NCBI RefSeq assembly: GCF_004786015.1
Contig: NZ_CP032096.1
Location: forward strand, 806,001-870,000
Source of the DNA: Hydrogenovibrio crunogenus
Lineage (GTDB): Bacteria; Pseudomonadota; Gammaproteobacteria; Thiomicrospirales; Thiomicrospiraceae
Reading direction: 5' to 3'
Length of the DNA: 64,000 nt
Shown: one piece after another, positions 2,529 to 63,607 of the stretch
How positions within the stretch are numbered: the stretch's first letter is position 1
Layout: each line of letters opens with the position of its first letter
Notes under the pieces: generated by a model
Told to the model about the DNA's origin: nothing
What the model saw: the letters and a program-made list of their open reading frames with translations, nothing else
Database searches by the model: none
Made by a program: the position numbers and the translations under genes

Positions 2529-2619
2529 GGTGGACTGGCTGAGTGGTTGAAGGCGGCGGTCTTGAAAACCGTTGTAGGTTAGTAGCCTACCTGGGGTTCG
2601 AATCCCTAGTCCACCGCCA
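2529..2619 (+). tRNA. serT: tRNA-Ser (anticodon UGA)
   Basis: The 91-nt sequence folds as a class II tRNA. The acceptor stem pairs GGTGGAC with GTCCACC, with a G discriminator and an encoded CCA. The anticodon loop CTTGAAA carries TGA at 2563-2565, the variable arm is long, and the T loop is GGTTCGAATCC. It reads UCA/UCG-type serine codons. Its 3' end is the likely attachment site of the adjoining integrase island; I saw no second copy of the 3' end later in the window. Confidence 0.96.
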
Positions 2620-2626
2620 TATTCTT

Positions 2627-2799: not shown

Positions 2800-3936
2800 A
2801 TGCTTAACAATACAAAAGTAAAAAGGCTGAAAGCTGCGGATAAAACGTATCGTGAACTTGATTACGATGGGCTTTATATCGAGGTCAAACCTAATGGCAA
2901 AAAGTTTTGGCGGTACCGATACAAAAAGCCGGACGGCAAAGAATCAATGAAATCTCTTGGTGAATTTCCAAAAGTGGATATTGACCAGGCCCGGGAATCA
3001 CGAGATGCTTTTAGGAAGGGAGAAGAATATTCTTCTCAAAAGGATAACCTGGTCAGTGAAGTTGCTTTAAAGTGGCTCGAGTGGAAAGGGTATAAGTCTC
3101 AAAAAAATTACGATCTCATTAGAAGCAGAATTGAGAATTACATCAATCCTGTTATTGGCAATATGCCAATTAATCATGTTAAGCCTAAAGATATACTCCC
3201 AATCTTAAAAAGAATCGAAAAGCGAGGTCATTTAGAGCTTGCTAGACGTATTCAGCAATTACTAAGTGGTATCTTTAAATATGGTGCGCTTAATTTGCTC
3301 TGTGAAACGAATCCGGCACTTATATTAAGCGGTGCAACCAAGGCACCTAATGTTAAGCACCATCCTGCAATCACAACTGAAGAACCTTTTAAAGATTTGC
3401 TCCAAAAAGTAGATGCTGGTGAATTTATGCGGGTTCCCGCTATAAAGCTTGCTTTACAACTTCAAGCCTACATTTTTTTAAGATCAGAAAGCATGCGCTT
3501 AATAAAGCCTGGTGATGTCGATTTAAAAAACCGGCTGCTCTCTATTCCAAAAACTAAGAATCATCGTGAAATGATAGTGCCACTTTGTGACTCAGCAATT
3601 CAGATCATAGAAGATGCCCTTGAAATGACAGATGGATTTTATTTGTTCAGTGGCATGAGTGTTGGCTCAATGATCAGTGAGAACTCATTAAATAAGCGGT
3701 TGCGTTATTATGGCATTGATAAAGATGAGCATGTATTTCATGGTTATAGAACGACTTTTAGTACCCTTGCAAGAGATAAGCTAAGGCTTGAGGGTGAATT
3801 GATTGAGATTCAGCTAGACCATAATGTTAAATCAAAGGTTCAAGCCGCTTATGACCGTAGTGAGCGACTTGAAGAGCGTTATGAAATGATGGTTAAGTGG
3901 GGAGATTATGTGGATTCGTTGAGGTTTATCAAATAA
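2800..3936 (+). CDS. Tyrosine recombinase (P4-type island integrase)
   Basis: This 378-residue protein has the N-terminal arm-binding domain of P4-type integrases (GLYIEVKPNGKKFWRYRY), a core-binding domain, and a catalytic domain from about residue 200. Catalytic positions are visible: Arg in LRSESMRL, HGYR for the H-x-x-R box, His in LDHNVKSK, and the nucleophile Tyr in QAAYDRSERLEER. Such enzymes integrate and excise islands at tRNA 3' ends, and this one lies 180 bp from the tRNA-Ser 3' end in the usual position. It looks intact. The repeats over its start may regulate it. Confidence 0.93.
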   Translation: MLNNTKVKRLKAADKTYRELDYDGLYIEVKPNGKKFWRYRYKKPDGKESMKSLGEFPKVDIDQARESRDAFRKGEEYSSQKDNLVSEVALKWLEWKGYKSQKNYDLIRSRIENYINPVIGNMPINHVKPKDILPILKRIEKRGHLELARRIQQLLSGIFKYGALNLLCETNPALILSGATKAPNVKHHPAITTEEPFKDLLQKVDAGEFMRVPAIKLALQLQAYIFLRSESMRLIKPGDVDLKNRLLSIPKTKNHREMIVPLCDSAIQIIEDALEMTDGFYLFSGMSVGSMISENSLNKRLRYYGIDKDEHVFHGYRTTFSTLARDKLRLEGELIEIQLDHNVKSKVQAAYDRSERLEERYEMMVKWGDYVDSLRFIK

Positions 3937-4117: not shown

Positions 4118-5434
4118 GGGCCTGTAAACCAAATTGTGTAAACGCTCATAGTTTAAAATTCCCCGAAAAGGAAAATCACTATGAGCAACATCGACCAAGA
4201 AAAACTCAAAGCCATGGCCGCTGAGCTGGCCAAGGATATCAAAACTCAGAGCGACTTGTCTGACCTCTCAGCCAGTCTGCTTAAAATGACCGTTGAAGCC
4301 GCCCTCGGTGCTGAAATGGAAGAGCACCTGGGCTATCCCAAGCACCACAGTTCCGACAGCGACAACAGCCGAAACGGCTATTCATTTAAAACCCTCAAAG
4401 GCGACCATGGCGAAGTGGAAATCGCCATCCCTCGGGATCGCCAGAGTGAGTTTAACCCCACCATTATCAAAAAAGGCGAAACCCGCCTGACCAGCATGGA
4501 TGACCAGATACTGGCGCTTTATGCCAAAGGCATGACCACCCGAGACATTGTGGCAACGTTCAAAGAGATGTATGGCGCTGATGTCTCGCCAACACTGATC
4601 TCCAAGGTCACCGAAGCGGTCATGGAAAAAGTCACCCTCTGGCGTTCTCGTCCGTTGGACGAAGTCTATCCGCTGCTGTATCTCGATGGTATTGTCATCA
4701 AGGTCCGCCAGGACAAACAGGTGGTGCGAAAAACCATGTATGTAGCGCTTGGCGTCAATACCGACGGCCAAAAAGAATGCCTGGGCCTGTGGCTGTCTGA
4801 GACCGAGTCATCCAAGTTCTGGTTGAGCGTTTTAAACGACCTTGAAGCCCGAGGCGTCAAGGACATACTGGTCGCAAGCGTTGATGGCCTGACGGGCTTT
4901 CCTGAGGCCATCAATACCGTCTACCCTCAGGCAGATGTTCAACTTTGCATTGTGCACATGGTGCGCAATTCCCTGCGTTATGTTGGCTACAAAGAGCGCA
5001 AACAGGTCGCCAACGACCTCAAACAGGTTTACCAGTCAGTGACCGAAGAAGAAGCTCTGTTGGCGCTTGAGCAGTTCGAGACCAAATGGGATGACAAATT
5101 CCCCAATATCGGTCGTTCCTGGCGCAACAACTGGGACAATGTGGCCACGCTGTTCCAGTACCCTCAGGCGATCCGCAAGGTGATCTATACGACGAATGCG
5201 ATTGAATCTTTGAACTCGGTGATTCGCAAAGCCACCAAGAATCGCAAGATCTTCAGCCATGATAACTCGGCCTTTAAAATCATTTTTCTGGCCATTGAAT
5301 CGGCCTCAAAAAAATGGACCATGCCGATTCGAGACTGGAAATTAGCCATGAACCAGTTTATGATTCTGCATGAAGAACGCTTGAAACCTTATGTTTGATC
5401 AACCGAGCGTTTACACAGAATTATTTACAGGCTC
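4118..5434 (+). mobile_element. IS256-family insertion sequence, copy 1
   Basis: The 1,317-bp element has inverted ends: GGGCCTGTAAACC at the left and GAGCCTGTAAATAA at the right on the opposite strand, each running on to GTGTAAACGCTC. An 8-bp duplication TGTTCAAA flanks it at 4110-4117 and 5435-5442. Copies 2 and 3 encode the same protein, indicating recent transposition. It interrupts the relaxase-like gene. Confidence 0.95.
4181..5398 (+). CDS. IS256-family (mutator) transposase
   Basis: The 405-residue protein has the mutator transposase layout: N-terminal helical region, AEMEEHLGY, a DDE catalytic core with Asp in LYLDGIVIKV and Asp in VASVDGLTGFPEAI, the CIVHMVRNSLRYV signature, and Glu in TTNAIESLNSVIRK. 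Length is typical. Start ATG follows AAAAGG. Its promoter is likely inside the IS left end. Confidence 0.96.
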   Translation: MSNIDQEKLKAMAAELAKDIKTQSDLSDLSASLLKMTVEAALGAEMEEHLGYPKHHSSDSDNSRNGYSFKTLKGDHGEVEIAIPRDRQSEFNPTIIKKGETRLTSMDDQILALYAKGMTTRDIVATFKEMYGADVSPTLISKVTEAVMEKVTLWRSRPLDEVYPLLYLDGIVIKVRQDKQVVRKTMYVALGVNTDGQKECLGLWLSETESSKFWLSVLNDLEARGVKDILVASVDGLTGFPEAINTVYPQADVQLCIVHMVRNSLRYVGYKERKQVANDLKQVYQSVTEEEALLALEQFETKWDDKFPNIGRSWRNNWDNVATLFQYPQAIRKVIYTTNAIESLNSVIRKATKNRKIFSHDNSAFKIIFLAIESASKKWTMPIRDWKLAMNQFMILHEERLKPYV

Positions 5435-6516: not shown

Positions 6517-8085
6517 ATGTCAGAAGAAGAAAAAAGACTACTTGAACAACAGCTCTGGAATATCGCCAACGCCTTGCGTGGCAAGATGGATGCCGATGAA
6601 TTTCGGGATTACATCTTAGGGTTTATCTTTTACAAATACCTCTCAGAAAAGCTCTGCCTTTACGCCAACAGCCTAGAAGACGATTTTGATTATGCCTCTA
6701 TCGATGAAACCACCGAAGAAGGCAAAGAGATTGTTGAAGCGGTCGCGCAAGAGACCATTGAAAAGCTGGGCTATGTGTTAAAACCCTCTGAACTCTTTTC
6801 CGCCGTAGCTAAGAAAGGTTCGGCCATTGAAGGCGAATCGACCGATAACTTTATCTTGGGTGAGCTGCAAAACACGCTTAATAACATCGAACAGTCCACT
6901 ATGGGCACGGAGTCCGAAGACGACTTTAATAAACTGTTTGAAGATCTCGACTTAAACTCCACCAAATTGGGTAAAACCGAAAAGCAAAAGAACGAACTGG
7001 TCTCTAAAATCCTCTCGCATTTAGATCAAGTCGATTTCCAGCTCGAAAACGCCAATGCCGATGTATTAGGTGATTCTTACGAATACCTGATTGGGCAGTT
7101 TGCCAGCGGCGCCGGTAAAAAAGCCGGTGAGTTCTATACCCCGCAAACGGTTTCTAGCATTCTCGCTAAGATTGTCACTGACGATAAAAACTATCTGAAA
7201 TCGGTGTATGACCCAACCTGCGGTTCGGGGTCTTTGTTGTTACGTGTTTCCAAAGAAGTGAAAGAAGTCGGGCATTTTTATGGGCAAGAACTCAACCGGA
7301 CTACCTATAACTTGGCGCGCATGAACATGATTCTGCACGATGTGAACTACAAACAGTTCGACATCAGCCAGGACGATACGCTGGAACACCCGCATCACTT
7401 AGGCCAACAGTTTGAAGCCATTGTCGCCAATCCGCCTTTCTCGGCTCACTGGTCTGCCAATCCTTTGTTTTTAAGTGACGACCGCTTTTCACAATACGGC
7501 AAGCTTGCCCCAAAAACCAAAGCCGACTTTGCCTTTGTGCAGCACATGGTGCACCACCTGGCCGATAACGGCACCATGGCGGTGGTGTTGCCGCATGGCG
7601 TATTATTCAGAGGCGCGGCAGAAGGGCATATTCGCCAATACCTAATTGAAGACCGTAATTATCTGGATGCCGTGATAGGTCTGCCTGCCAATATCTTCTA
7701 CGGCACCTCAATCCCCACCTGTATTTTAGTGTTTAAGAAATGCCGAACTAATCCAGACGATATTCTGTTTATTGATGCGTCCAATGGCTTTGAAAAAGCC
7801 AAGAACCAAAACCGACTAAGACCGGAAGACATCGACAAAATCGTCACCACCTATCACAACCGTGAAACGATTGATAAATACAGCTACGTAGCAGGCCTGG
7901 CAGAAATCAAAGAGAACGACTACAACCTCAATATTCCGCGATATGTGGATACCTTTGAAGAAGAAGAACCGGTTGATTTAGCTGCGGTAACCCAACAAAT
8001 CAAAGTCATTGATAAAGAAATGCAACAAACCGACGCGGTGATTGCCGACTACTGCAAACAGCTTGGCATAGAGGCACCGTTTTAA
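6517..8085 (+). CDS. hsdM: Type I restriction-modification DNA methylase, M subunit
   Basis: This 522-residue protein carries the HsdM N-terminal helical domain and then the N6-adenine methylase domain: EFYTPQTV before it, motif I DPTCGSGSLLL, and catalytic motif IV NPPF at residues 305-308. With HsdS it methylates adenine in a bipartite target, and with HsdR it forms the restriction complex. The stop overlaps the hsdS start (TAATG), showing coupling. All key motifs are intact. Confidence 0.96.
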   Translation: MSEEEKRLLEQQLWNIANALRGKMDADEFRDYILGFIFYKYLSEKLCLYANSLEDDFDYASIDETTEEGKEIVEAVAQETIEKLGYVLKPSELFSAVAKKGSAIEGESTDNFILGELQNTLNNIEQSTMGTESEDDFNKLFEDLDLNSTKLGKTEKQKNELVSKILSHLDQVDFQLENANADVLGDSYEYLIGQFASGAGKKAGEFYTPQTVSSILAKIVTDDKNYLKSVYDPTCGSGSLLLRVSKEVKEVGHFYGQELNRTTYNLARMNMILHDVNYKQFDISQDDTLEHPHHLGQQFEAIVANPPFSAHWSANPLFLSDDRFSQYGKLAPKTKADFAFVQHMVHHLADNGTMAVVLPHGVLFRGAAEGHIRQYLIEDRNYLDAVIGLPANIFYGTSIPTCILVFKKCRTNPDDILFIDASNGFEKAKNQNRLRPEDIDKIVTTYHNRETIDKYSYVAGLAEIKENDYNLNIPRYVDTFEEEEPVDLAAVTQQIKVIDKEMQQTDAVIADYCKQLGIEAPF

Positions 8086-9278
8086 TGAGTGATATTAAGA
8101 ATGTGCCTGAATCGAAGACTGTGCGTAGCAAAGCGGAGCCAGAATTGAGGTTTCCTGATTTTAACGGAGTAAATCTATTTCAAGGGCTATTAGGAGAATT
8201 ATCTGATGTGAGAGATGGTACACATGATTCTCCTAAATTTTATGATTCAGGTTTTCCATTGGTAACCTCCAAAAACTTAAAGGCTGATGGAACCTTAGAC
8301 TTAAATGATGTTAATTTGATTTCCAGAGAAGACTACATTTCAATTAACAAGCGTTCAGGGGTTTCAGTTGGAGATATTTTATTTGGAATGATTGGCACAA
8401 TTGGTAATCCCGTGTTACTTAAAGAGGATGGTTTTGCTATAAAAAATGTTGCATTGCTTAAAGAAAAAGAAAAGTTGAAAAATGATTTCCTTATTCATTA
8501 TTTGTCAGGTAGCAATATTGCAAGGCAGTTTTATGTAAATAATGTTGGTGGAACACAGAAATTTATTGCATTGGGACAAATCAGGTCATTAGAAATAAAT
8601 TTTCCACAGTTACCAGAACAACAAAAAATCGCTGATTTTTTAAGTTCGGTCGATAAAAAAATCGAACAGCTCACCGAAAAACACCGCCTGCTCACCGAAT
8701 ACAAAAAAGGCGTCATGCAACAAATATTCACCCAACAAATCCGCTTTAAAGACAACCAAGGCAATGACTATCCTGAGTGGGAACATAGGCCGTTTACTGA
8801 TGTATTAAGTCCAGTTAGTACTAAGAAATTTCAAATTAAAAGCAATGAAATTCAAGATTTGGGAAAATATCCTGTTGTTGACCAAGGGCAGAAAAATATT
8901 GCAGGCTATAGTGATTATGAAGAAAAGTTATTAAAAACGAATAGCTTGATTGTTTACGGTGATCATACGACTGTTGTGAAATTTATAGATTTTGATTTTA
9001 TTGTTGGTGCTGACGGCACTAAAGTTTTAGATGCCTGCTCAAATGATGATTTAAGGTACTTATTCTATAACTTGATGTATAACAATATTTCAGCAGAAGG
9101 TTACAAGCGACATTTTAGTATTTTGAAGAAAATTAATCTTCAAATACCGATATTGGAAGAACAACAAAAAATAGCCAATTTCCTAACCGAAATCGACCAC
9201 AAAATCGACCAGGCCTGGTCAATCCTAGAACAAACCAAAGCCTTTAAAAAAGGCTTATTACAGAAGATGTTTGTGTAA
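8085..9278 (+). CDS. hsdS: Type I restriction-modification specificity subunit
   Basis: This 397-residue protein has the standard two-fold HsdS layout: two variable target-recognition domains (about residues 20-160 and 225-350), each followed by a conserved helical spacer. The spacers begin EQQKIADFLSSVD and EQQKIANFLTEID. Each recognition domain reads one half of the DNA target. A copy of the ACCAGGCCTGGT palindrome lies in the second spacer and encodes DQAWS. It looks complete; I cannot predict its target. Confidence 0.95.
   Translation: MSDIKNVPESKTVRSKAEPELRFPDFNGVNLFQGLLGELSDVRDGTHDSPKFYDSGFPLVTSKNLKADGTLDLNDVNLISREDYISINKRSGVSVGDILFGMIGTIGNPVLLKEDGFAIKNVALLKEKEKLKNDFLIHYLSGSNIARQFYVNNVGGTQKFIALGQIRSLEINFPQLPEQQKIADFLSSVDKKIEQLTEKHRLLTEYKKGVMQQIFTQQIRFKDNQGNDYPEWEHRPFTDVLSPVSTKKFQIKSNEIQDLGKYPVVDQGQKNIAGYSDYEEKLLKTNSLIVYGDHTTVVKFIDFDFIVGADGTKVLDACSNDDLRYLFYNLMYNNISAEGYKRHFSILKKINLQIPILEEQQKIANFLTEIDHKIDQAWSILEQTKAFKKGLLQKMFV
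9208..9219. repeat. ACCAGGCCTGGT palindrome, copy 2
   Basis: Exact copy inside hsdS, extended to a 14-bp palindrome by flanking G and C; read as D-Q-A-W-S. Confidence 0.9.
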
Positions 9279-11883: not shown

Positions 11884-14754
11884 ATGACAAATAAAGTAGC
11901 AGATTCACAGGGTTTTTATTTTTCGGGCCAGCTTCAGTCTGAAGCGCAGTTGGAGAATAATTTAATTGCGCAGTTAGTCAGCCAGGGCTATGAACGTGTT
12001 GTGATTAAAGATGAAGCCAGCCTGCTCACCAACCTCAAGCACCAGTTAGAAAAACATAATAAAACCACGTTTTCGGATACTGAGTTCAAGAAGATTGTTA
12101 ATCACCTTAACAAAGGCAATGTATACGAGCGTGCGCAAACCCTGCGCGATAAATTCAACCTGACTCGTGATGACGGCTCTCCCTTTTATTTGGAATTCAT
12201 TGACCAAATAGAGTGGTGCCAGAACCAGTACCAAGTGACGAACCAAATCACCATGGAAGGTGAATACCAAAACCGTTATGACGTGACGATTCTGATTAAC
12301 GGTTTGCCCTTGGTGCAGGTTGAGTTAAAACGCCGAGGCTTAGAGCTTAAAGAGGCCTTTAACCAGACTAAACGCTATGACAAACACTCTTATGGATCGG
12401 GTGCGGGCTTATTTCAATACATTCAGTTGTTTGTGATCAGTAATGGCGTGAATACCAAGTATTACGCGAATAATAAAAAACAGTCTTTTAAGCAAACTTT
12501 CTTCTGGTCAGACAAAGACAATAACCAAATCACTCAGCTCGAACAATTTGCCAAAACCTTTTTGGAAAAGTGTCATCTCTCGAAGATGATTACCAAATAC
12601 ATCGTCTTAAACCACACCTTTAAAATCCTGATGGCGTTACGCCCTTATCAATACTACGCGGTGGAAGCGATTATTGATAAAGTGAAAAACTCGGTGCATA
12701 ACGGCTATATCTGGCACACAACGGGTTCGGGTAAAACGTTAACTTCCTTCAAGGCCGCTCAAATCCTGACCAACTTACCCAAAGTCGATAAGGTGGTATT
12801 CTGTGTAGACCGTAAAGACTTGGATTATCAAACCGCCAAAGAATTCAATGCGTTCAGTGAAGGCAGTGTGGACAGTACCGACAATACCCAAAAACTGGTG
12901 AAGCAGCTGGGTGATGACACCAAGCTGATCGTCACCACGATTCAAAAGCTGAATACCGCGATTATGAAAGAGCGGTATAAAGCCGCGATGGAGCCTCTGA
13001 AAGATAAACACATTATCTTTATCTTTGATGAATGTCACCGCAGTCAGTTCGGGGATACCCATAAGCGCATTACCGAGTACTTCAATCATTATCAAATGTT
13101 CGGTTTTACCGGGACACCGATCTTTGTCGAGAACGTCGCCAAGAATCAGCATGGCAAACGCACGACCAAGGACTTGTTTGGTGAGTGTTTACATAAATAC
13201 GTGATTACCGACGCGATTCGAGATGAGAACGTGCTGAAGTTTGCAGTGGAGTACATTAATACTTTTAAGCAGCATGACACGATTCGAGATATTGAAGTCG
13301 AAGACATCGATACCAAAGAAGTAATGGAGTCGCCGCAGCGCATTGAAGCGGTGGTGGATTACATTATTGCAAACCATGAGCGGAAAACCCACGCGAAAGA
13401 ATTTACAGGGATGTTGTGTGTGAGTTCTGTGGAGGTGCTAACGACGTATTACGATATCTTCCAACAGAAAAAGCTGGCGGGAGAGCATAATCTAAAAGTG
13501 GGTACTATCTTCAGTTACGCGGCGAATGAAGAAGATAAAGGTGCAGACGACTTTATCACTGAAGAAACCACCGATATGACCGGTAAGAAGGTCAATCAAC
13601 ACAGTCGTGATAAGTTGGAGTCTTACATTGGTGATTACAATGCGATGTTTGGCACCAAGTACACTACTAAGGACAGTAAATCGTTTTACAACTACTATAA
13701 CGAACTTGCTAAACGCGTTAGAGACAAAGAGGTCGATATTCTTCTGGTGGTCAATATGTTTTTAACCGGGTTTGACTCTCCGCCACTCAATACGCTCTAC
13801 GTTGACAAAAACCTCAAATACCATGGATTGATTCAAGCCTTCTCTCGTACCAACCGCACCATGGGTGAGAAGAAGTCTCAGGGTAATATTGTTTGCTTTA
13901 GAAACTTAAAGCAAGCCACGGATGATGCGATTAGTTTGTTCTCAGATAAGAACGCCAAAGACACTATTATCATGGAGCCTTATGAAAACTATGTAAAACA
14001 GTTCAATGAGGCGTTAGAACAGCTTAAGGCCATTGCCCCTGATGTGGATAGTGTTAATGCCTTACAAAGCGAAGAAGACGAGTTTGCTTTTATTAAGGCG
14101 TACCGCGAATTGATGCGTGTTTATAACGTGCTCGTCACCTTTACTGATTTTGAGTTTGATGATGTGGCCATCGAAGAGCAAGAATATACCGATTACGGCA
14201 GTAAATATCTTGACCTGTATGACAAGGTAAAAAGTAACAACCAAAAAGAGAAGGTCTCGATTCTGAATGATGTGGACTTTGAGTTGGAGCTCATTCACCG
14301 AGATGAAATCAATGTCACCTACATTCTAAAACTACTCGGCCAGCTTAAAGACGCACCCAAAGAAGAGCATGAAGCCCGTAAGAAAAACATTATGGATATG
14401 CTCTCTGGGGATGTGCAGATGCGTTCCAAAAAAGAACTGATTGAAAAGTTCATTCATGAAAATTTGCCAGAGGTGCAAAACGGTGGTCAGGTTGAGGAAC
14501 GGTTTAAACAGTTTTGGAAAGAACAAGACTCTGCTGAGATCAAACGGATTTGTGAAGAAGAGAACCTTGATCTTGAAAAGGTTCAAAAGTTGATTTCCAG
14601 TTATCTATTTACTGAAAAACTTCCATATCGAGATGATGTCGTTAAAACGATGAATCAAAAGCCGACCATCTTGAAGCGAAAGACCGTTTCTCAAAGAGTG
14701 CTAGATCAGATGTTGGATTATATTAAGACGTTTATTGATGGTGCGCCGGAATGA
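11884..14754 (+). CDS. hsdR: Type I restriction endonuclease, R subunit
   Basis: The 956-residue protein has the full HsdR layout. The N-terminal nuclease domain contains RYDVTILINGLPLVQVELK, the PD-(D/E)xK core. An SF2 translocase follows, with Walker A TGSGKT at about residue 281 and DECH at about 382, then GFTGTPIF, and a second RecA-like domain containing RTNR. The C-terminal 200 residues are helical and contact HsdM. It pumps and cuts unmodified DNA. It overlaps the next gene by four bases (ATGA). The operon order hsdM-hsdS-(insert)-hsdR suggests that the fic segment was added later. Confidence 0.95.
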   Translation: MTNKVADSQGFYFSGQLQSEAQLENNLIAQLVSQGYERVVIKDEASLLTNLKHQLEKHNKTTFSDTEFKKIVNHLNKGNVYERAQTLRDKFNLTRDDGSPFYLEFIDQIEWCQNQYQVTNQITMEGEYQNRYDVTILINGLPLVQVELKRRGLELKEAFNQTKRYDKHSYGSGAGLFQYIQLFVISNGVNTKYYANNKKQSFKQTFFWSDKDNNQITQLEQFAKTFLEKCHLSKMITKYIVLNHTFKILMALRPYQYYAVEAIIDKVKNSVHNGYIWHTTGSGKTLTSFKAAQILTNLPKVDKVVFCVDRKDLDYQTAKEFNAFSEGSVDSTDNTQKLVKQLGDDTKLIVTTIQKLNTAIMKERYKAAMEPLKDKHIIFIFDECHRSQFGDTHKRITEYFNHYQMFGFTGTPIFVENVAKNQHGKRTTKDLFGECLHKYVITDAIRDENVLKFAVEYINTFKQHDTIRDIEVEDIDTKEVMESPQRIEAVVDYIIANHERKTHAKEFTGMLCVSSVEVLTTYYDIFQQKKLAGEHNLKVGTIFSYAANEEDKGADDFITEETTDMTGKKVNQHSRDKLESYIGDYNAMFGTKYTTKDSKSFYNYYNELAKRVRDKEVDILLVVNMFLTGFDSPPLNTLYVDKNLKYHGLIQAFSRTNRTMGEKKSQGNIVCFRNLKQATDDAISLFSDKNAKDTIIMEPYENYVKQFNEALEQLKAIAPDVDSVNALQSEEDEFAFIKAYRELMRVYNVLVTFTDFEFDDVAIEEQEYTDYGSKYLDLYDKVKSNNQKEKVSILNDVDFELELIHRDEINVTYILKLLGQLKDAPKEEHEARKKNIMDMLSGDVQMRSKKELIEKFIHENLPEVQNGGQVEERFKQFWKEQDSAEIKRICEEENLDLEKVQKLISSYLFTEKLPYRDDVVKTMNQKPTILKRKTVSQRVLDQMLDYIKTFIDGAPE

Positions 14755-16117: not shown

Positions 16118-17434
16118 GGGCCTGTAAACCAAATTGTGTAAACGCTCATAGTTTAAAATTCCCCGAAAAGGAAAATCACTATGAGCAACATCGACCAAGA
16201 AAAACTCAAAGCCATGGCCGCTGAGCTGGCCAAGGATATCAAAACTCAGAGCGACTTGTCTGACCTCTCAGCCAGTCTGCTTAAAATGACCGTTGAAGCC
16301 GCCCTCGGTGCTGAAATGGAAGAGCACCTGGGCTATCCCAAGCACCACAGTTCCGACAGCGACAACAGCCGAAACGGCTATTCATTTAAAACCCTCAAAG
16401 GCGACCATGGCGAAGTGGAAATCGCCATCCCTCGGGATCGCCAGAGTGAGTTTAACCCCACCATTATCAAAAAAGGCGAAACCCGCCTGACCAGCATGGA
16501 TGACCAGATACTGGCGCTTTATGCCAAAGGCATGACCACCCGAGACATTGTGGCAACGTTCAAAGAGATGTATGGCGCTGATGTCTCGCCAACACTGATC
16601 TCCAAGGTCACCGAAGCGGTCATGGAAAAAGTCACCCTCTGGCGTTCTCGTCCGTTGGACGAAGTCTATCCGCTGCTGTATCTCGATGGTATTGTCATCA
16701 AGGTCCGCCAGGACAAACAGGTGGTGCGAAAAACCATGTATGTAGCGCTTGGCGTCAATACCGACGGCCAAAAAGAATGCCTGGGCCTGTGGCTGTCTGA
16801 GACCGAGTCATCCAAGTTCTGGTTGAGCGTTTTAAACGACCTTGAAGCCCGAGGCGTCAAGGACATACTGGTCGCAAGCGTTGATGGCCTGACGGGCTTT
16901 CCTGAGGCCATCAATACCGTCTACCCTCAGGCAGATGTTCAACTTTGCATTGTGCACATGGTGCGCAATTCCCTGCGTTATGTTGGCTACAAAGAGCGCA
17001 AACAGGTCGCCAACGACCTCAAACAGGTTTACCAGTCAGTGACCGAAGAAGAAGCTCTGTTGGCGCTTGAGCAGTTCGAGACCAAATGGGATGACAAATT
17101 CCCCAATATCGGTCGTTCCTGGCGCAACAACTGGGACAATGTGGCCACGCTGTTCCAGTACCCTCAGGCGATCCGCAAGGTGATCTATACGACGAATGCG
17201 ATTGAATCTTTGAACTCGGTGATTCGCAAAGCCACCAAGAATCGCAAGATCTTCAGCCATGATAACTCGGCCTTTAAAATCATTTTTCTGGCCATTGAAT
17301 CGGCCTCAAAAAAATGGACCATGCCGATTCGAGACTGGAAATTAGCCATGAACCAGTTTATGATTCTGCATGAAGAACGCTTGAAACCTTATGTTTGATC
17401 AACCGAGCGTTTACACAGAATTATTTACAGGCTC
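16118..17434 (+). mobile_element. IS256-family insertion sequence, copy 2
   Basis: Same 1,317-bp element and ends as copy 1. It is flanked by a 9-bp duplication GCAATCTCA at 16109-16117 and 17435-17443, within the normal 8-9 bp range of IS256. Confidence 0.95.
16181..17398 (+). CDS. IS256-family (mutator) transposase
   Basis: This 405-residue product is identical to that of copy 1, with the same DDE core and promoter region. Confidence 0.96.
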   Translation: MSNIDQEKLKAMAAELAKDIKTQSDLSDLSASLLKMTVEAALGAEMEEHLGYPKHHSSDSDNSRNGYSFKTLKGDHGEVEIAIPRDRQSEFNPTIIKKGETRLTSMDDQILALYAKGMTTRDIVATFKEMYGADVSPTLISKVTEAVMEKVTLWRSRPLDEVYPLLYLDGIVIKVRQDKQVVRKTMYVALGVNTDGQKECLGLWLSETESSKFWLSVLNDLEARGVKDILVASVDGLTGFPEAINTVYPQADVQLCIVHMVRNSLRYVGYKERKQVANDLKQVYQSVTEEEALLALEQFETKWDDKFPNIGRSWRNNWDNVATLFQYPQAIRKVIYTTNAIESLNSVIRKATKNRKIFSHDNSAFKIIFLAIESASKKWTMPIRDWKLAMNQFMILHEERLKPYV

Positions 17435-18591
17435 GCAATCTCATTGATCAGGTTAGGCGGTAATTTTTTAGAATGATGTGCTTCAGCATGACTGGTAAAC
17501 GCAGCTAATTTTTCTATTTCATCAAGCTTAAGATTCTTTAGTTCATGTAGATGAAACAGTTTTACTTTATTTTTAGCATGGACAGGTTTGTTTTTATTGA
17601 TGACTAAAATACTGGCATTAAAATGTGCGTTTTTAAAATACAAGTTAGCTGGCAAAGCAATAATCATTTCAACTAAATCTTTTTTAACAAGCTGTTCGCG
17701 AAATTCATAATCAAAAGTGGTTCGATGGAAAAAACCATCTTCAATCAACAAGACCGCCACGCCATTATCATTCAAGATTTCTAATATAGCCTCAACCCAG
17801 GCTGTTGAATGTGTTTTTGCTTTTCTCGTGTCGTGATTAACGGTTCCAGTCGACGATGCAATTGAGCTTAAAACGGCATCATATTTTTCTTTTTTTGGCT
17901 TGTGATTTTGAAGAAGTTTGACAGGTGTTGTAGTCACCGTTTGTTGAACAATATTTGGTTCATTAGATTGCAAGTCATGTTGATCAAGCATGACTACATT
18001 CCAAAATAATTTGGCTACCTCTCTCTCAAGCTGAGTGTCAGAATTTAAACCGATTTTAGAAAAGGGGAGTGGTGGCCACGAAAATACCAAGTCTCCTGTT
18101 CTAGAGAGAGGGTCAAGTAGGCTCGTTTGTTCTTTATCTGAAGTTAGGTTTAGCAAAACAGACTGCATTAACCGCCTAATAACGACAGGCGTAAAGTTGA
18201 CCCCTGTTCGTCTTGGGTTGTCATCCATAAATTTTCTGAGTTCTAAAGAAAGATTATCTGTCGTCAGTGCAATCGTTGTTAAAGAAACAATCATTTTTGC
18301 ATCTAAGTTATCGAATAAATCGGTATATAAATCATTGCTTTTAGCAAAACGATGCACTTCATCTTTTAGTCTATTTTTTGTCTCAGTTGCTTTCAGTGTT
18401 GCCATTTCGGTATGAGAACGATTGTTATGACGACCTTTTATTAATTCAGTTAAACCTAATTCCACGCTCGTCTCATCAAGTTCGTTTAATGAGACTAGGG
18501 CAAGCTTGATTTGCAGTAAAACATACACGATTTCACAAGGGTCTTGGTTTTGAATCGCTTGCTTAAAGTTTTTTGAAAAGTTGTTATCCAT

Positions 18592-19206
18592 TTACTTTGT
18601 ATCCTTATTCGAGCGTTGCAACACATCGAATAGCTTGGTTTCTGCAACCACTTTTTGTTGATTGAATAATTCCAGTGTTTTCTTCTGTAGATCAGCATAA
18701 CGATAAAACATAGAAACCAGCGCTTTTTGATCGGATTGACAAGGAATTGCAATTGGATGCTCTAGCAGTTTTTTTAACGTGATCAGCATCGTGTTAGAAC
18801 GCGTTGCTGCAATGACATTCTCCTTAAAAAAGGAGGAGTTGAAGTAAGACACCAGAATTTCAGGTTGCAGGAAATCTGTATTTACTCTCATGATGACAAA
18901 GTTAGAGCTCGCAATATAGCTTTGCTTTGTATCCGCTTCACTTTGCTTAAATAACCCTGCCTTAAAAACATTTCCTCGTATTTGTATCACGATGTCGTTA
19001 TCGAGTAACAAGAACTTCTCAGCAGAACCTGGAACTATCCATGTTGTCTGAGCCAGTTCCGATTCAAACTCTCCATATTCATTGATTGATTGTCCCGTTA
19101 TGAGTCCCATCTCAACTCCATCTGTAAAGGAATCTTTAGAGATTTTTGAGGTGTTGATTCCAGTAAAAGCAGTGACACAATCTTTTAGTTTCATTTGGTT
19201 TCTCAA
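18592..19206 (-). CDS. HsdS-like protein with a single recognition domain
   Basis: This 204-residue protein resembles one half of a type I specificity subunit: a recognition domain (about residues 1-145) with ITLKKLLEHPIAIP near its end, then one helical spacer containing LQKKTLELFNQQK. Its stop adjoins the start of the HsdM-like gene, so the two form an operon. Half-size S subunits can dimerise to read a symmetric target. No R subunit accompanies this pair. With the partner lacking motif IV, a binding rather than methylating role is possible. Confidence 0.7.
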   Translation of the reverse strand: MRNQMKLKDCVTAFTGINTSKISKDSFTDGVEMGLITGQSINEYGEFESELAQTTWIVPGSAEKFLLLDNDIVIQIRGNVFKAGLFKQSEADTKQSYIASSNFVIMRVNTDFLQPEILVSYFNSSFFKENVIAATRSNTMLITLKKLLEHPIAIPCQSDQKALVSMFYRYADLQKKTLELFNQQKVVAETKLFDVLQRSNKDTK

Positions 19207-19396: not shown

Positions 19397-20449
19397 ATGA
19401 TGGAAACAGAAATGGTTTGGGGTAGAGCTGGCTGTACAACAAATGACAGATTACAAGAATTAGCTAATCAATTAGCTTCAAAGGGTAAGTTTGCAATAAT
19501 CAGTTCTAACAGTAGTTTCGAATTTATGAAAAAAGAGTCTGGCAATAGGGGAGCAAAAGATAACTTTGCAAAGATTAAGGAGTTCTATTACGAAGGGAAG
19601 CACTATAAAAAAGTGGCAAAAGTGACTCAACAGCTTTTGAAAGAGCTTAATAAACTTAAGAAACGTTTTCCAAATTTTATCGAAGTGATTATGCATATTG
19701 AAAACCACCTGACATTAAAAACTCTAGGGAATAAGAACATTCAAATTGATCCTCTTTATATTTGGGGTGAGCCAGGGATTGGTAAAACAGAATTTGTATT
19801 CGCACTGAGTGAGGTGTTTGGGGTTGATTTAGAAAAGTGCAATGCGGGACAGCTTGGTGGAGCAATTGCATTAGCAGGGTCAGAACCACAATGGTCTGAT
19901 TCAGCACCTGGTCTCATTGTTCAAGGGATGATGCGTTCAGAAAATGCCAATTTTATTTTTTTTATGGATGAGTTGGAAAAGGTGAATCACAGTGGAAATA
20001 ACGGGAATCCGCTCAATGCTCTTTATGACTTATTAGAAGAGCGTTCTGCAAGTCAGTTTGTCGATCAAGCTTTTACAAGTGCGGTTTTATTTGATGCATC
20101 TGCTTTGATTTTTATGGCCTCTGGAAATAGCACTGAAGGAATTCATCCAGCATTACTTTCACGTTTAAATGTCTTTGAAGTTCCTTTGCCAACTATCGAA
20201 CACATGAAATCCATTATTCAAAACATTCATGTATCGATTTTAGAAGGTAGTGATTGGGGTAGTTTTTTTGATACTAAATTAAGTGAAGAGGTTATTGATG
20301 TCTTGATTAAAGATCAAAGATCAGTTCGACAGGTCAAAAAAAGTCTGAAAAATTCTTACGTTAATGCATATCAAAATAAGCGTAGTTACCTGATCGTTGA
20401 TGACCTAGAAATTATTCAAGATAAGACTGTTCCAATGGGATTTTATTAG
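19397..20449 (+). CDS. AAA+ ATPase, unknown role
   Basis: The 350-residue protein has an N-terminal region of about 110 residues with no motif I know, then a AAA+ module. Walker A is GEPGIGKTEF (about residues 123-132), Walker B is FFMDEL, sensor 1 is FMASGNS and the arginine-finger region is LLSRLNVFEVP. The module resembles MoxR/Lon-type ATPases but no protease domain is present. It is divergent from the HsdS-like gene (190 bp apart) and points toward the recombinase-like gene. It could be a DNA-processing or defence ATPase; function not known. Confidence 0.7.
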   Translation: MMETEMVWGRAGCTTNDRLQELANQLASKGKFAIISSNSSFEFMKKESGNRGAKDNFAKIKEFYYEGKHYKKVAKVTQQLLKELNKLKKRFPNFIEVIMHIENHLTLKTLGNKNIQIDPLYIWGEPGIGKTEFVFALSEVFGVDLEKCNAGQLGGAIALAGSEPQWSDSAPGLIVQGMMRSENANFIFFMDELEKVNHSGNNGNPLNALYDLLEERSASQFVDQAFTSAVLFDASALIFMASGNSTEGIHPALLSRLNVFEVPLPTIEHMKSIIQNIHVSILEGSDWGSFFDTKLSEEVIDVLIKDQRSVRQVKKSLKNSYVNAYQNKRSYLIVDDLEIIQDKTVPMGFY

Positions 20450-21716: not shown

Positions 21717-22289
21717 ATGGGGTTTTATGAAGAATTGAATGAACTCAAGCAAAAGTTTAAACGAGAGTTAGAAGTCGGTGCTTCGATTCAATCGATTGTT
21801 ATAAATAACTTTTCAACTTTAAAAAGTTTGTTGCGAACTAGAAAAGAAGGGAGTTCAGGCCCTTTTACAACAAGACAGCTCGCAGATTGTTTTGGCATCG
21901 GATATTTCGCTTTACGTGGCGCATTGAGGCGAGCTGAAAACAAGGTAGAGAGTAAACATATTAGTTATTCGAAGAAGAATAGAGAGGTTAACAAGCCACT
22001 TGTAAAACGAGTCGCTATGCAGGAATGGCAGCAAGTATATGAATCAGATTTAGCGGTTACGAGATTGAGTCAAAGTTTAGAAGCGCTGCTAAAGGTTATT
22101 GATTCAAAACAGAGCTTCTTACTTGATTTAGAAGATGGTTCAGATTTATACAAAATGGTTTATCGAGAAAAAAGGGATGATTTTGTTATTTTTGATGCTT
22201 TTGCGAAAGAAGGCAAATCAAAGATTTCAAAACAAATGAAGTTTAGTAAAGATACAGGTTTTTCTAAAAAAGGAATTAATTATGAGTAA
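21717..22289 (+). CDS. Putative helix-turn-helix protein upstream of a ParA-like gene
   Basis: I do not recognise this 190-residue protein. Residues about 50-75 (FTTRQLADCFGIGYFALRGAL) fit a helix-turn-helix. The tail is rich in Lys and Ser. The last codons overlap the next gene by eight bases, so the two are coupled. A DNA-binding adaptor next to a ParA-like ATPase is the usual layout of partition modules, for example StbA/StbB. AAAGGAGAGG before the start is a strong ribosome-binding site. Confidence 0.5.
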   Translation: MGFYEELNELKQKFKRELEVGASIQSIVINNFSTLKSLLRTRKEGSSGPFTTRQLADCFGIGYFALRGALRRAENKVESKHISYSKKNREVNKPLVKRVAMQEWQQVYESDLAVTRLSQSLEALLKVIDSKQSFLLDLEDGSDLYKMVYREKRDDFVIFDAFAKEGKSKISKQMKFSKDTGFSKKGINYE

Positions 22290-22980
22290 AACGATCTATA
22301 TAAGTCACGGTGATAAAGGTGGGTGTGGAAAGAGTTTATTGGCAATGATTATTGCCAGTATTTTATCAGTAAAGAAAATGCCTTTACTACTAGTAGAAGC
22401 TGATGCAAATCAGTCGGGTGGTCAGCCAGATGTTGCCCCTAGGTTTGAGAATGATGATTACGCTGAAGTGGTAATGGCGCCTATTTCAGGTCAGGAATCA
22501 GCCGAAGATTTAATTGCTGATCTTTTTGAAATTATTGAGCAGACAGATGTTGAACATATTGTAATTAATACCCCTGCTGGTGCAAGTGAAACACTTGAAC
22601 AAGTTGGAGAATTAATCGGTTTAGCTTGTAAAAGTCTAGGTTATCGTTTGGTTATTTTTTACAACATTTTCAAAACAGAAGTTGCAGTTAAACAAGCTGA
22701 ATTAGTATTAGAGGGGAATTTGGTTAAACACGCTGATGAACTATATTTAGTTAAAAATGCGTTTTTTGGAATCCCTGAATTATCATCAAGAATAAGTTTA
22801 TTAGAAAGTTTTGAAATTCCTGTTTTACATAAAAATGTCATGGAAAAATTAGGTGACAGACAAAATTTTGCAAAGGCTCTTAAAACGTTTCCAATAATGC
22901 AAAGAATTCAGGTAGAACAGTTTTTTAAATCTCTTCAGAACCAAGGCTTTTTTGAAGTATTGAAGCTGGAAGAGCAATAA
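22282..22980 (+). CDS. ParA/MinD-like ATPase
   Basis: The 232-residue protein has the deviant Walker A box KGGCGKS at residues 12-18, LLLVEADANQ for the switch I region, and VINTPAG where ParA proteins have a conserved DxPPG-like loop. Such ATPases position plasmids, islands or protein complexes. The proline-glycine loop is altered but the signature lysines remain. Together with the HTH gene upstream and the coiled-coil gene downstream it may be a partition or stabilisation module of the island, similar in size to StbB; this is inferred from context. Confidence 0.75.
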   Translation: MSKTIYISHGDKGGCGKSLLAMIIASILSVKKMPLLLVEADANQSGGQPDVAPRFENDDYAEVVMAPISGQESAEDLIADLFEIIEQTDVEHIVINTPAGASETLEQVGELIGLACKSLGYRLVIFYNIFKTEVAVKQAELVLEGNLVKHADELYLVKNAFFGIPELSSRISLLESFEIPVLHKNVMEKLGDRQNFAKALKTFPIMQRIQVEQFFKSLQNQGFFEVLKLEEQ

Positions 22981-26022: not shown

Positions 26023-26205
26023 TTGGTAACATGGCTACCAGAGAATGTCATTCGCTGGGCTGGCGGTGAAGGTGGTTCTGGTGGCGTACCGGATGGTCAG
26101 GATGCTAATGCACCATCGAGTCTTACCAATAAAGAGGTAAGTTCAGGCCCGGGTGACAGTAGTTCCAGTTCTGCTAGTCAATCAGCAGTAGATTCAAATG
26201 CTTAA
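26023..26205 (+). CDS. Possible small Gly/Ser-rich protein
   Basis: An open frame of 60 codons starts at TTG (26023). It begins MVTWLPENVIRW and ends in a Ser/Gly-rich tail. There is no clear ribosome-binding site; an ATG at 26014 opens a different, very short frame. Before the transposon inserted, this lay just upstream of the gene now at 63604, so it may belong to an island operon. I do not recognise it, and region 25897-26022 holds nothing I can name. Confidence 0.3.
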   Translation: MVTWLPENVIRWAGGEGGSGGVPDGQDANAPSSLTNKEVSSGPGDSSSSSASQSAVDSNA

Positions 26206-26230: not shown

Positions 26231-26235
26231 CATGC
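26231..26235. repeat. Target duplication CATGC, left copy
   Basis: Matches 63603-63607 at the other end of the transposon; 5 bp is the size made by Tn7-like elements. Confidence 0.8.
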
Positions 26236-26313
26236 TGTCAGTTATCACTAAACCTGCTACTTTTTCATAAAAGACGCTACCAAAGCTTTGTTGATAAAAA
26301 TCATGCTGGTTCC
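26236..26313 (+). repeat. Left end of the Tn7-like transposon with TnsB-type sites
   Basis: The terminus begins TGTCAGTT. Sites: TAAACCTGCTACT at 26249-26261 (exact inverse of 63502-63514), AAAGACGCTACC at 26270-26281, and a weaker ATCATGCTGG near 26300. The promoter of the first cargo gene must overlap these sites. Confidence 0.82.
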
Positions 26314-26342
26314 GTTCCTTATTTTTCATATAAGGCGGCATC

Positions 26343-28256
26343 TTGAATTACCCTCCTATAGCTTCTTTTCCAAATGACCAACAATTAAGAGTTGTCTGGG
26401 GGTTTGGTTCTGTACATGTAAGCCACAATTTAAGCACGGCTCCACATTTCCTAGTCTCATTGAGAAGCATTGTAGATAATCGACTTGATGAATATGAAAC
26501 AGTTTACAAAATCCCATTAGCTCAAGCGGATATTGTTCGACTCGGTACCGTATGGTTAGGTCAACGACGTGTTGAAGGTTTTTGGGCGCAATATTCTAAG
26601 ACTTATGAACGCTCTGTAGTTTTTGATTTTGATTTTATTAACTCTCCGCCTTCCTCAATCGAATTTTCCGAAAAAGACCCATCGACAGACTACTATCAAA
26701 TACCCCCATTTGCCTATTCATTGGCATTTGGTACCAAGTCAAAAATAAATACTAAACTTAAAAGTAGTGATAACTTGAATGAAGAGGAAACAAGAGACCT
26801 TAAAAGACAAGCTGTATATTTAGGTCAAATGTCTAAATCTAAATTAACAAAACTAATTTCGAATGATGAATGTACTGTTTTAATTCCTTCCATTGAGTTT
26901 TTAACTAGTTGTTATACCCCACGAGAGCAACAGCTGAGAAACAAGGTTGTAAACCTTAACTTAGATGATGCGTTAGCTGATTATATTGATTTGGACGAAT
27001 CAGGTGAAAATAAGCTCGGTGAATATGACCTATATATGAAGTCTAGAAAGCATCAAACAAACCTAGCATTTTTAGGGTATGCCCACGGCAATGCTGTTAC
27101 TAAAGAACGACTCAGAGTTCTAAGAAATAGCTTAACTAAAGCTAATAAAGACCCGTCAGGACGTAATTATCCTGACCGCCATCCGGATGTTCTTCCTTAT
27201 CACCCTGAGAGTATGCGGTTGAGTGGCGATGGAATTTGGATTGATGACCAAACTTTCTTGATGTTAAGAGTAAGAGGATGTTCTTTGCCAACAACGCATA
27301 AGATTAATCAAGTACTTATGGAAACGATTTATACAGGACTAGAAGACGATCCAATCCAGGGTACTGGTGAGAATAATGGTGGTGGCTTTACAGCTGGAGG
27401 TGCTATTGGTAACTTTCAGGATGTGCCAATAATTCCTGGTACCGATCCAAACGTTAACGCCGCTGGTGCTCATATTTTAAGTGAAGTGATGATTTTAGGT
27501 AAATCGCCAGATGTTGAAGATTTTGTAGAGACAACGCAGAGCGATATAAAGCGAAGAAATAAGAATAGAGCTGATGGGCAAAAACTAAGAGGTCTTTCTT
27601 CTGGAGAGTTAAATAGTAGTAAGAACTCTGAAGGGATTGGGCAATTAAAGCAATCTGAAAGAGGCGGCGATACGACTGAATACGTTAACCAACTTGAAAT
27701 TCTTGATACGGTAAAAAATGCTCTCCTGTCTTTATTCGCGAGCCAAAAAATTAAAGAATTAGAATTCTTAGATTCACTCACAAACTTGAATTTAATGCCT
27801 GCTTTTGTGTCATTTCCAACCAAATTAATTGGGCAAAAAAATAACAGTAGCTGGGCTGTCTATTGTAAAAACCAGTATAACCAAGTTATAACGAGAGTTG
27901 CCTTGTTAGTTAAAATGACAATGCCTGATGGAACGGTATTATTTTTCTTTGAAATTCAGAGGAAGCCTAATGAAAAAGGTTTTAGCGGGTTAATTTTTGA
28001 AACTTATGATAATACCGTTTCGTCGAGCCAGCTATATGAGTTTCTGTCTAAAGTTGTTGAATATCAGGGTAAGTTTCGTCGTCGTGTTAAAAGCACATCT
28101 ACGATAGAGGGTGAAAAACGAAAAACTTCTCAGAGAAAAGAGTTACCTAGTTTTATTAAAAAATCGGTGATTTTTGAGCATCGTAAAGGCTCAAGGACTT
28201 GGGAGGATAAAATTCTTTTTGAACTTATAGGTTATTCAAGTAAGGCATCGCAATAA
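26343..28256 (+). CDS. Large unknown protein at the transposon left end (possible TnsE-like protein)
   Basis: This 637-residue protein is the first gene inside the left end, reading inward, with a TTG start after AAGGCGG. I cannot place it firmly. It has an N-terminal beta-rich region, then YYQIPPFAYSLAF (about residue 120), a middle PYHPESMRLSG and RVRGC segment, a Gly/Asn-rich low-complexity linker (about 340-360), and a C-terminal domain containing SWAVYCKNQYN and FFFEIQRKPN. The order, and the segment after an IP-x-x-x-x-A/S-x-F pattern, faintly recall TnsE, which steers Tn7 to conjugating DNA. That is a weak hypothesis; it may instead be cargo. No transmembrane segment or signal peptide is seen. 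Confidence 0.45.
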   Translation: MNYPPIASFPNDQQLRVVWGFGSVHVSHNLSTAPHFLVSLRSIVDNRLDEYETVYKIPLAQADIVRLGTVWLGQRRVEGFWAQYSKTYERSVVFDFDFINSPPSSIEFSEKDPSTDYYQIPPFAYSLAFGTKSKINTKLKSSDNLNEEETRDLKRQAVYLGQMSKSKLTKLISNDECTVLIPSIEFLTSCYTPREQQLRNKVVNLNLDDALADYIDLDESGENKLGEYDLYMKSRKHQTNLAFLGYAHGNAVTKERLRVLRNSLTKANKDPSGRNYPDRHPDVLPYHPESMRLSGDGIWIDDQTFLMLRVRGCSLPTTHKINQVLMETIYTGLEDDPIQGTGENNGGGFTAGGAIGNFQDVPIIPGTDPNVNAAGAHILSEVMILGKSPDVEDFVETTQSDIKRRNKNRADGQKLRGLSSGELNSSKNSEGIGQLKQSERGGDTTEYVNQLEILDTVKNALLSLFASQKIKELEFLDSLTNLNLMPAFVSFPTKLIGQKNNSSWAVYCKNQYNQVITRVALLVKMTMPDGTVLFFFEIQRKPNEKGFSGLIFETYDNTVSSSQLYEFLSKVVEYQGKFRRRVKSTSTIEGEKRKTSQRKELPSFIKKSVIFEHRKGSRTWEDKILFELIGYSSKASQ

Positions 28257-55663: not shown

Positions 55664-56980
55664 GAGCCTGTAAATAATTCTGTGTAAACGCTCGGTTGAT
55701 CAAACATAAGGTTTCAAGCGTTCTTCATGCAGAATCATAAACTGGTTCATGGCTAATTTCCAGTCTCGAATCGGCATGGTCCATTTTTTTGAGGCCGATT
55801 CAATGGCCAGAAAAATGATTTTAAAGGCCGAGTTATCATGGCTGAAGATCTTGCGATTCTTGGTGGCTTTGCGAATCACCGAGTTCAAAGATTCAATCGC
55901 ATTCGTCGTATAGATCACCTTGCGGATCGCCTGAGGGTACTGGAACAGCGTGGCCACATTGTCCCAGTTGTTGCGCCAGGAACGACCGATATTGGGGAAT
56001 TTGTCATCCCATTTGGTCTCGAACTGCTCAAGCGCCAACAGAGCTTCTTCTTCGGTCACTGACTGGTAAACCTGTTTGAGGTCGTTGGCGACCTGTTTGC
56101 GCTCTTTGTAGCCAACATAACGCAGGGAATTGCGCACCATGTGCACAATGCAAAGTTGAACATCTGCCTGAGGGTAGACGGTATTGATGGCCTCAGGAAA
56201 GCCCGTCAGGCCATCAACGCTTGCGACCAGTATGTCCTTGACGCCTCGGGCTTCAAGGTCGTTTAAAACGCTCAACCAGAACTTGGATGACTCGGTCTCA
56301 GACAGCCACAGGCCCAGGCATTCTTTTTGGCCGTCGGTATTGACGCCAAGCGCTACATACATGGTTTTTCGCACCACCTGTTTGTCCTGGCGGACCTTGA
56401 TGACAATACCATCGAGATACAGCAGCGGATAGACTTCGTCCAACGGACGAGAACGCCAGAGGGTGACTTTTTCCATGACCGCTTCGGTGACCTTGGAGAT
56501 CAGTGTTGGCGAGACATCAGCGCCATACATCTCTTTGAACGTTGCCACAATGTCTCGGGTGGTCATGCCTTTGGCATAAAGCGCCAGTATCTGGTCATCC
56601 ATGCTGGTCAGGCGGGTTTCGCCTTTTTTGATAATGGTGGGGTTAAACTCACTCTGGCGATCCCGAGGGATGGCGATTTCCACTTCGCCATGGTCGCCTT
56701 TGAGGGTTTTAAATGAATAGCCGTTTCGGCTGTTGTCGCTGTCGGAACTGTGGTGCTTGGGATAGCCCAGGTGCTCTTCCATTTCAGCACCGAGGGCGGC
56801 TTCAACGGTCATTTTAAGCAGACTGGCTGAGAGGTCAGACAAGTCGCTCTGAGTTTTGATATCCTTGGCCAGCTCAGCGGCCATGGCTTTGAGTTTTTCT
56901 TGGTCGATGTTGCTCATAGTGATTTTCCTTTTCGGGGAATTTTAAACTATGAGCGTTTACACAATTTGGTTTACAGGCCC
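55664..56980 (-). mobile_element. IS256-family insertion sequence, copy 3
   Basis: Same 1,317-bp element as copies 1 and 2 in the opposite orientation. TTAGTTCA flanks it at 55656-55663 and 56982-56989 (one extra C at the right junction). It lies inside the Tn7-like transposon. Confidence 0.94.
55700..56917 (-). CDS. IS256-family (mutator) transposase
   Basis: This 405-residue product is identical to the two other copies. Confidence 0.96.
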   Translation of the reverse strand: MSNIDQEKLKAMAAELAKDIKTQSDLSDLSASLLKMTVEAALGAEMEEHLGYPKHHSSDSDNSRNGYSFKTLKGDHGEVEIAIPRDRQSEFNPTIIKKGETRLTSMDDQILALYAKGMTTRDIVATFKEMYGADVSPTLISKVTEAVMEKVTLWRSRPLDEVYPLLYLDGIVIKVRQDKQVVRKTMYVALGVNTDGQKECLGLWLSETESSKFWLSVLNDLEARGVKDILVASVDGLTGFPEAINTVYPQADVQLCIVHMVRNSLRYVGYKERKQVANDLKQVYQSVTEEEALLALEQFETKWDDKFPNIGRSWRNNWDNVATLFQYPQAIRKVIYTTNAIESLNSVIRKATKNRKIFSHDNSAFKIIFLAIESASKKWTMPIRDWKLAMNQFMILHEERLKPYV

Positions 56981-57075
56981 CTTAGTTCACGGTGGTAAGG
57001 CTGATATAGATCAAGTTGGGCTCTAAGATAAAGGAATAATTTTTCTCCTTTTGGGCTGCAAATCAATAGTGAGAG

Positions 57076-57492
57076 TCAACGTTTAATTCCTTCAAAATAC
57101 AGGTTGGAATATTGAAATTCTACCTGGCCTGCTTTTCCATAGCTATTTACGTTGATTATGAAATGAACCGCATTCATTTCATATTCAGCAGAAGATGGAG
57201 TTTTGTATAAAGTCTCCCTTAAATCAAAATCACAAACTGTGCAATGAACAATGTCTAACGGATGAAATAGAACATCTTGAATTCGCACATTAAGAGAGCG
57301 TCACGCTCTAAGCTTGATTCGAAATAGGTATAGGCATCGCTTATATTGCTATGGACGTAACCAGTAATGTTACGATAGTTCAAGGGAATTTTTCTTGCAG
57401 GCACGGCAACTTTCTCATTTATTTTTGGAGAAATCTTGTCAATTTCATCAGTTAGTAAACCAAGTTATTAATTAAGTTTGTAGAAAATGACA
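57076..57492 (-). pseudogene. Relic tnsA 5' end with an old transposon end
   Basis: On the minus strand, from a GTG at about 57417, the frame reads PARKIPLNYRNITGYV and then FESSLERDALLMCEF. The FESSLERD run is shared exactly with the live TnsA (62736-63449). The frame closes soon after; the next 70-residue open stretch (57076-57288, one frame over) has no motif I know. About 60 bp upstream of the GTG, at 57483-57492, TGTCATTTTC is the terminal sequence of many tni/Tn7-type elements. This looks like the right end of an older, different Tn7-like element. Confidence 0.6.
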
Positions 57493-63449: not shown

Positions 63450-63470
63450 AATATTCCTGGTTGGTAAGGT

Positions 63471-63602
63471 TGTAGCACTGTTTGTGACGGAATGTAAAGG
63501 TAGTAGCAGGTTTAATGATAATAGTAGCAGGTTTTTTGACCATGATTCCATCTAACTCATTGATTATTTCAAAAATAGTAGCATATTTAACGAAAACTGT
63601 CA
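63471..63602 (-). repeat. Right end of the Tn7-like transposon with TnsB-type sites
   Basis: Sites: TGTAGCACTGTTT (63471-63483), AGTAGCAGGTTTA (63502-63514), AGTAGCAGGTTTT (63523-63535), AGTAGCATATTTA (63577-63589). The terminus reads TGACAGTT from outside. Four closely spaced sites on this side match the usual right-end layout. Confidence 0.85.
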
Positions 63603-63607
63603 CATGC
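63603..63607. repeat. Target duplication CATGC, right copy
   Basis: Matches 26231-26235; the ATG inside it is the start codon of the interrupted gene. Confidence 0.8.

Follow-up and report, generated by a model that had tools for sequence, protein, structure and literature searches.

What kind of protein is encoded by the gene nearest to the left end of a Tn7-like transposon when, searched alone, it matches nothing in Pfam, NCBIfam, PADLOC or PDB? The question is raised by the genome of the vent bacterium Hydrogenovibrio SP-41, in a stretch of 64,000 nucleotides (contig NZ_CP032096.1, positions 806,001 to 870,000), here called the window, in which a Tn7-like element of 37,367 bp occupies positions 26236-63602 between two copies of a 5-bp target duplication. 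The answer proposed here is that the protein, 637 residues long, is very probably a highly diverged, remote TnsE from the Tn6022-like group of Tn7 transposons, one that probably targets the element to plasmids and to other DNA whose replication is unusual. The parts of the element and its immediate borders are, in window coordinates:

26231-26235, left copy of the target-site duplication, CATGC.
26236-26342, left end, with the terminus TGTCAGTT... and a TnsB-like repeat, ACCTGCTACTTTT, at 26252-26264.
26343-28256, forward strand, the very probable tnsE (remote, Tn6022 type), 637 aa, TTG start.
29135-55127, hydrogenase gene cluster II of SP-41, the cargo: hypF, hydrogenase subunits, maturation protease, sigma-54 regulator, sensory hydrogenase, histidine kinase and others (PMC6501319).
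55700-56917, reverse strand, Mutator-family (IS256-like) transposase inside the element, identified through an ORF of the same length (405 aa) at 4181-5398 that has a Pfam match.
56977-57407, reverse strand, pieces of tniQ (56977-57276) and tnsA (57279-57407), joined together and left over from another Tn7-like element.
57549-58868, reverse strand, tnsF, 439 aa, homologous to the gene after tniQ in related comM-inserted elements.
58856-59941, reverse strand, tniQ, 361 aa (PF06527).
59922-60842, reverse strand, tnsC of the TniB family (PF05621).
60857-62746, reverse strand, tnsB (rve, Mu-transpos_C).
62736-63551, reverse strand, tnsA (PF08722, PF08721).
63499-63602, right end, with the terminus ...AACTGTCA and TnsB-like repeats at 63574-63586, 63520-63532 and 63499-63511.
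63603-63607, right copy of the target-site duplication, CATGC.

The open reading frame at 26343-28256 is present as the first-pass annotation described it, starting exactly 107 bp inside the left terminus and reading inward, with the sequence AAGGCGG a few bases 5' of its start codon. Comparison with a 94%-identical copy from a Thiomicrorhabdus MAG gave a dN/dS of approximately 0.19 over 390 codons, and the gene has thus been under purifying selection and is, by this measure, more than a chance open reading frame; the Thiomicrorhabdus copy carries a frameshift in the assembled contig. The promoter of the gene had been proposed to overlap the TnsB sites. A TnsB-like repeat (26252-26264) does stand in the 107-bp leader, but a simple scan found no sigma-70-like promoter there on the tnsE strand, and this proposal was not borne out.

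The far end of the element carries a tnsA-tnsB-tnsC-tniQ-tnsF operon with a short TniQ, and the element is therefore classified as a Tn6022-like transposon, an assignment made on its parts and its relatives. The target duplication of 5 bp is accompanied by repeated TnsB-like sites at both ends, four in total (ACCTGCTACTATT and variants), with one clear copy on the left and three on the right. TniQ is complete, whereas TnsF lacks approximately the first 54 residues, and with them the first zinc-finger segment that its relatives have, and has a C-terminus that looks complete. Since TnsF is short while TniQ is complete, the pathway into comM may be weakened in this element. Insertion in comM, a mark of the Tn6022-like group, does not apply to the window copy, which resides in a tRNA-Ser island. 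The family has, however, also been described as entering conjugal plasmids (PMC11406308), so comM is not its only class of site. The Tn7-like remnant inside the element (56977-57407) adjoins the IS256-like copy and resembles the element in the comM gene of SP-41, its TniQ piece being 52% identical over 100 aa and its TnsA piece 84% identical over 43 aa.

The left-end position, which the first-pass annotation had proposed as a check, was found in every complete case examined among related Tn7-like transposons. In four complete elements (G015, G032, G053 and G057) tnsA-tnsB-tnsC-tniQ-tnsF lie at one end and tnsE at the opposite end on the other strand, the same arrangement, with tnsE near the left end, as in the window. 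All four split comM, the N-terminal part of which adjoins the tnsE end and the C-terminal part the tnsA end. The Thiomicrorhabdus NP51 MAG contig (L002) has its 94%-identical tnsE and a nearly identical left end directly in comM. In a plasmid of Acinetobacter portensis tnsE occupies one end and TniQ-TniB-TnsB-TnsA the other, converging, and this element is outside comM. Relatives of the window family on plasmids come from Acinetobacter, Aliarcobacter and one Proteus; altogether they were detected in 150 plasmid records, 75 of them typed conjugative. Further relatives occur in genomes of the same family as the host, and the viral contigs that were scanned contained no relative of the window protein.

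Similarity to TnsE had been noticed earlier by eye and considered weak. As a single sequence the window protein scored 22.5 against canonical TnsE, with a null maximum of 23.8, and did not beat the shuffled controls; the case for TnsE therefore rests on the family to which the protein belongs. An alignment of nine members of this family (A1) was compared using hhalign with an alignment of eight canonical TnsE proteins (A2), the latter being true TnsE as judged from matches to PDB entries 5d16, 5d17 and 9d5l. The two profiles matched with a probability of 94.1%, an E-value of 1.3e-7 and a score of 67.9 over 381 columns, while the controls scored 17-18 (reversed alignments) and no more than 22.6 (60 column-shuffled alignments), so that the similarity first seen by eye is upheld. 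Removal of the window protein left the score unchanged (68.2), and addition of a second, very divergent homolog from SP-41 raised the probability to 96.6% and the score to 85.7. The match is collinear, running from the "IPxxE" segment as far as the C-terminus with 15% identities and leaving the N-terminal approximately 165 residues uncovered, and the C-terminal region, for which Tn7 TnsE has a solved structure, falls inside the matched span. The IP-x(4)-A/S-x-F motif noticed in the first-pass annotation is located within the TnsE-aligning stretch. None of the nine family members exceeded the cut-off of PF18623 (TnsE_C), a search with which matched genome G204 and not SP-41. The only match of the family profile in PDB, to a phage collar protein, was of low complexity and was discarded. 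AlphaFold models made from the single sequence, with no alignment, were poor (mean pLDDT of 31.8 for the full-length protein and 54.8 for the C-terminal part), and Foldseek searches with the C-terminal part returned no significant match and none to TnsE.

How does this protein compare with those already described? Tn7 TnsE (PF18623; PDB 5d16, 5d17) belongs to the same kind of element and shares the collinear profile match. The window protein differs in having no direct sequence match to it and in being approximately 100 residues longer, and its gene is outside any tnsABCDE operon. The segment that aligns with the sliding-clamp motif keeps its position (IPSIEFLTSCY in the window protein, IPQLELARVLF in Tn7 TnsE), but the Q and the final LF are not retained; the consensus of the clamp motif is itself loose (PMC5371812). 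Much closer in arrangement are proteins of Tn6022-like transposons, encoded near the left end, that Faure et al. (2023; PMC10293859) have already reported as remote TnsE and detected only "weakly". Their genes, too, stand at the left end on the strand opposite to the core genes, the set tnsA-tnsB-tnsC-tniQ-tnsF lying far away at the other end. They also have relatives in comM, and ordinary TnsE models fail to reach them. The window protein differs from them in host lineage and is only approximately 21% identical to the Acinetobacter members, and its element lies in an integrative island and has a shortened TnsF. The kind of protein has thus been known since 2023, and what is new is the assignment of a formerly unannotated SP-41 gene as TnsE.

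A second gene of this kind was found in the same genome. The comM gene of SP-41 is split by another Tn7-like element, the TnsB of which is approximately 37% identical to that of the window element. The comM stretch that is occupied in the relatives is uninterrupted in SP-41, and the second element is inserted further downstream. Its first left-end gene (L043:1654-3456; G000:C1:223653-225455) encodes a very divergent TnsE-like protein of 600 aa. Like the genes of the comM-inserted relatives, it is the first gene in the left end of a Tn7-like element in comM, and its product has a profile match to both TnsE groups, but it is missed by an ordinary HMM built from the family of the window protein. 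No TnsF was detected in the second element. Two TnsE genes so different from each other in one genome are reported here for the first time.

Function can be approached by comparison with Tn7, the TnsE of which recognises lagging-strand replication structures, makes contact with the sliding clamp and guides the transposon into conjugating plasmids (PMC11406308; PMC5371812). N-terminal PriB-like single-strand-binding domains have been described for TnsE (PMC10293859). Elements of the Tn6022 type reach comM through TniQ and TnsF, and conjugal plasmids presumably through TnsE (PMC10293859; PMC11406308). By homology, the window TnsE would probably recognise structures of lagging-strand or conjugative replication and recruit TnsC, which in turn would engage the TnsAB transposase. 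The element would thereby be sent into plasmids and other DNA that replicates in an unusual way, while TniQ and TnsF would serve a second pathway, into comM.

The target in which the window copy actually resides is an island, as the first-pass annotation had proposed in speaking of a nested insertion: the 21-bp attachment repeats of a tRNA-Ser gene (2529-2619) delimit the island that holds the transposon. The right repeat (65169-65189) is just outside the window, an integrase gene is found at 2800-3936, and the island corresponds to the 62.6-kb SP-41-specific region described earlier (PMC6501319). Two features of the island outside the transposon are of importance here:

2600-2620, forward strand, attL of the host island, the 3' end of tRNA-Ser, repeated at 65169-65189.
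26023-26205, forward strand, left flank of the transposon, a candidate C-terminal remnant of a DotA/TraY-family conjugation gene.

The insertion point coincides with the start codon of an island gene and closely follows the end of another. The left-flank remnant is 52% identical over 21 aa (E-value 0.028) to an ORF in L070 that matches DotA/TraY (TIGR04346) at 5.8e-43. By itself the 60-aa remnant had no NCBIfam match, and the two flanking remnants had no match among plasmids. The 21 residues are suggestive of the tail of a DotA/TraY conjugation gene beside the insertion.

Several other genes of the island were recorded. ORFs for Mutator/IS256-like transposases of the same length (405 aa) are present three times, once in the transposon (55700-56917) and twice in the island outside it (4181-5398 and 16181-17398). 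Type I restriction-modification genes are found at 6517-9278, 11884-14754 and 17425-19206; among them are a partial methylase of 388 aa and, on the opposite strand, a short specificity-like ORF. An AAA ATPase that weakly matches TRIP13 of defence systems (19397-20449) is followed by an unknown protein of 338 aa and, further on, by a weakly ParA-like protein (22282-22980).

It is plausible that TnsE placed the window copy in the island, and in SP-41 this may be put in a wider, tentative form. There, two Tn6022-like transposons whose TnsE proteins differ greatly might divide the classes of targets, one having taken comM and the other, damaged at the zinc-finger end of its TnsF, having moved its hydrogenase cargo by means of TnsE into an integrative conjugative island. 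A less probable alternative accepts the TnsE homology and has the island reached otherwise, by TniQ and the shortened TnsF choosing a new site, by low-fidelity transposition or by recombination with other Tn7-like remnants. The missing first zinc-finger segment of TnsF and the remnants of a second Tn7-like element inside the transposon are in keeping with such routes, and causation by TnsE is not something that is visible in a sequence. On the other hand, tnsABC, tniQ and tnsE all look intact and the 5-bp target duplication is clean, relatives of the window TnsE are common on conjugative plasmids, and the likeness of the island site to the comM site is at chance level (129 of 500 shuffles were as good).

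It is improbable that the protein, though homologous to TnsE, no longer selects targets and has taken on another role, for example as a regulator binding the left end. The letters of the clamp motif are indeed not conserved and the sequence is very divergent from canonical TnsE, but the C-terminal region is inside the matched span, the gene is under purifying selection, and Tn6022-like elements are found on conjugative and other plasmids. Least probable by far is ordinary cargo, a gene of unknown function that came first at the left end by chance, a reading which agrees with the failure of the single sequence to match a family in any of the four databases but not with an end position and orientation constant in the four other complete elements, in L002 and in the Acinetobacter plasmid element, nor with a significant, controlled and collinear TnsE profile match; on the same position and match a defence gene was ruled out as well.

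With the window gene taken as a remote tnsE, the finding bears on both the host and the transposon family. Hydrogenase cluster II of SP-41 has been published as part of a horizontally acquired island in a study in which Tn7 was never mentioned (PMC6501319), and it is recognised here as the cargo of a Tn6022-like transposon. This names the vehicle of that transfer, the Tn6022-like transposon, which lies nested within the tRNA-Ser island. TnsE is nearly universal in comM-targeting elements, and mechanistic information exists for no TnsE besides that of Tn7 (PMC11406308), so the divergent TnsE proteins of SP-41 provide useful material for the question of how TnsE works outside Tn7. If the two transposons do divide their targets, SP-41 would be a natural example of hydrogen metabolism being spread by TnsE.
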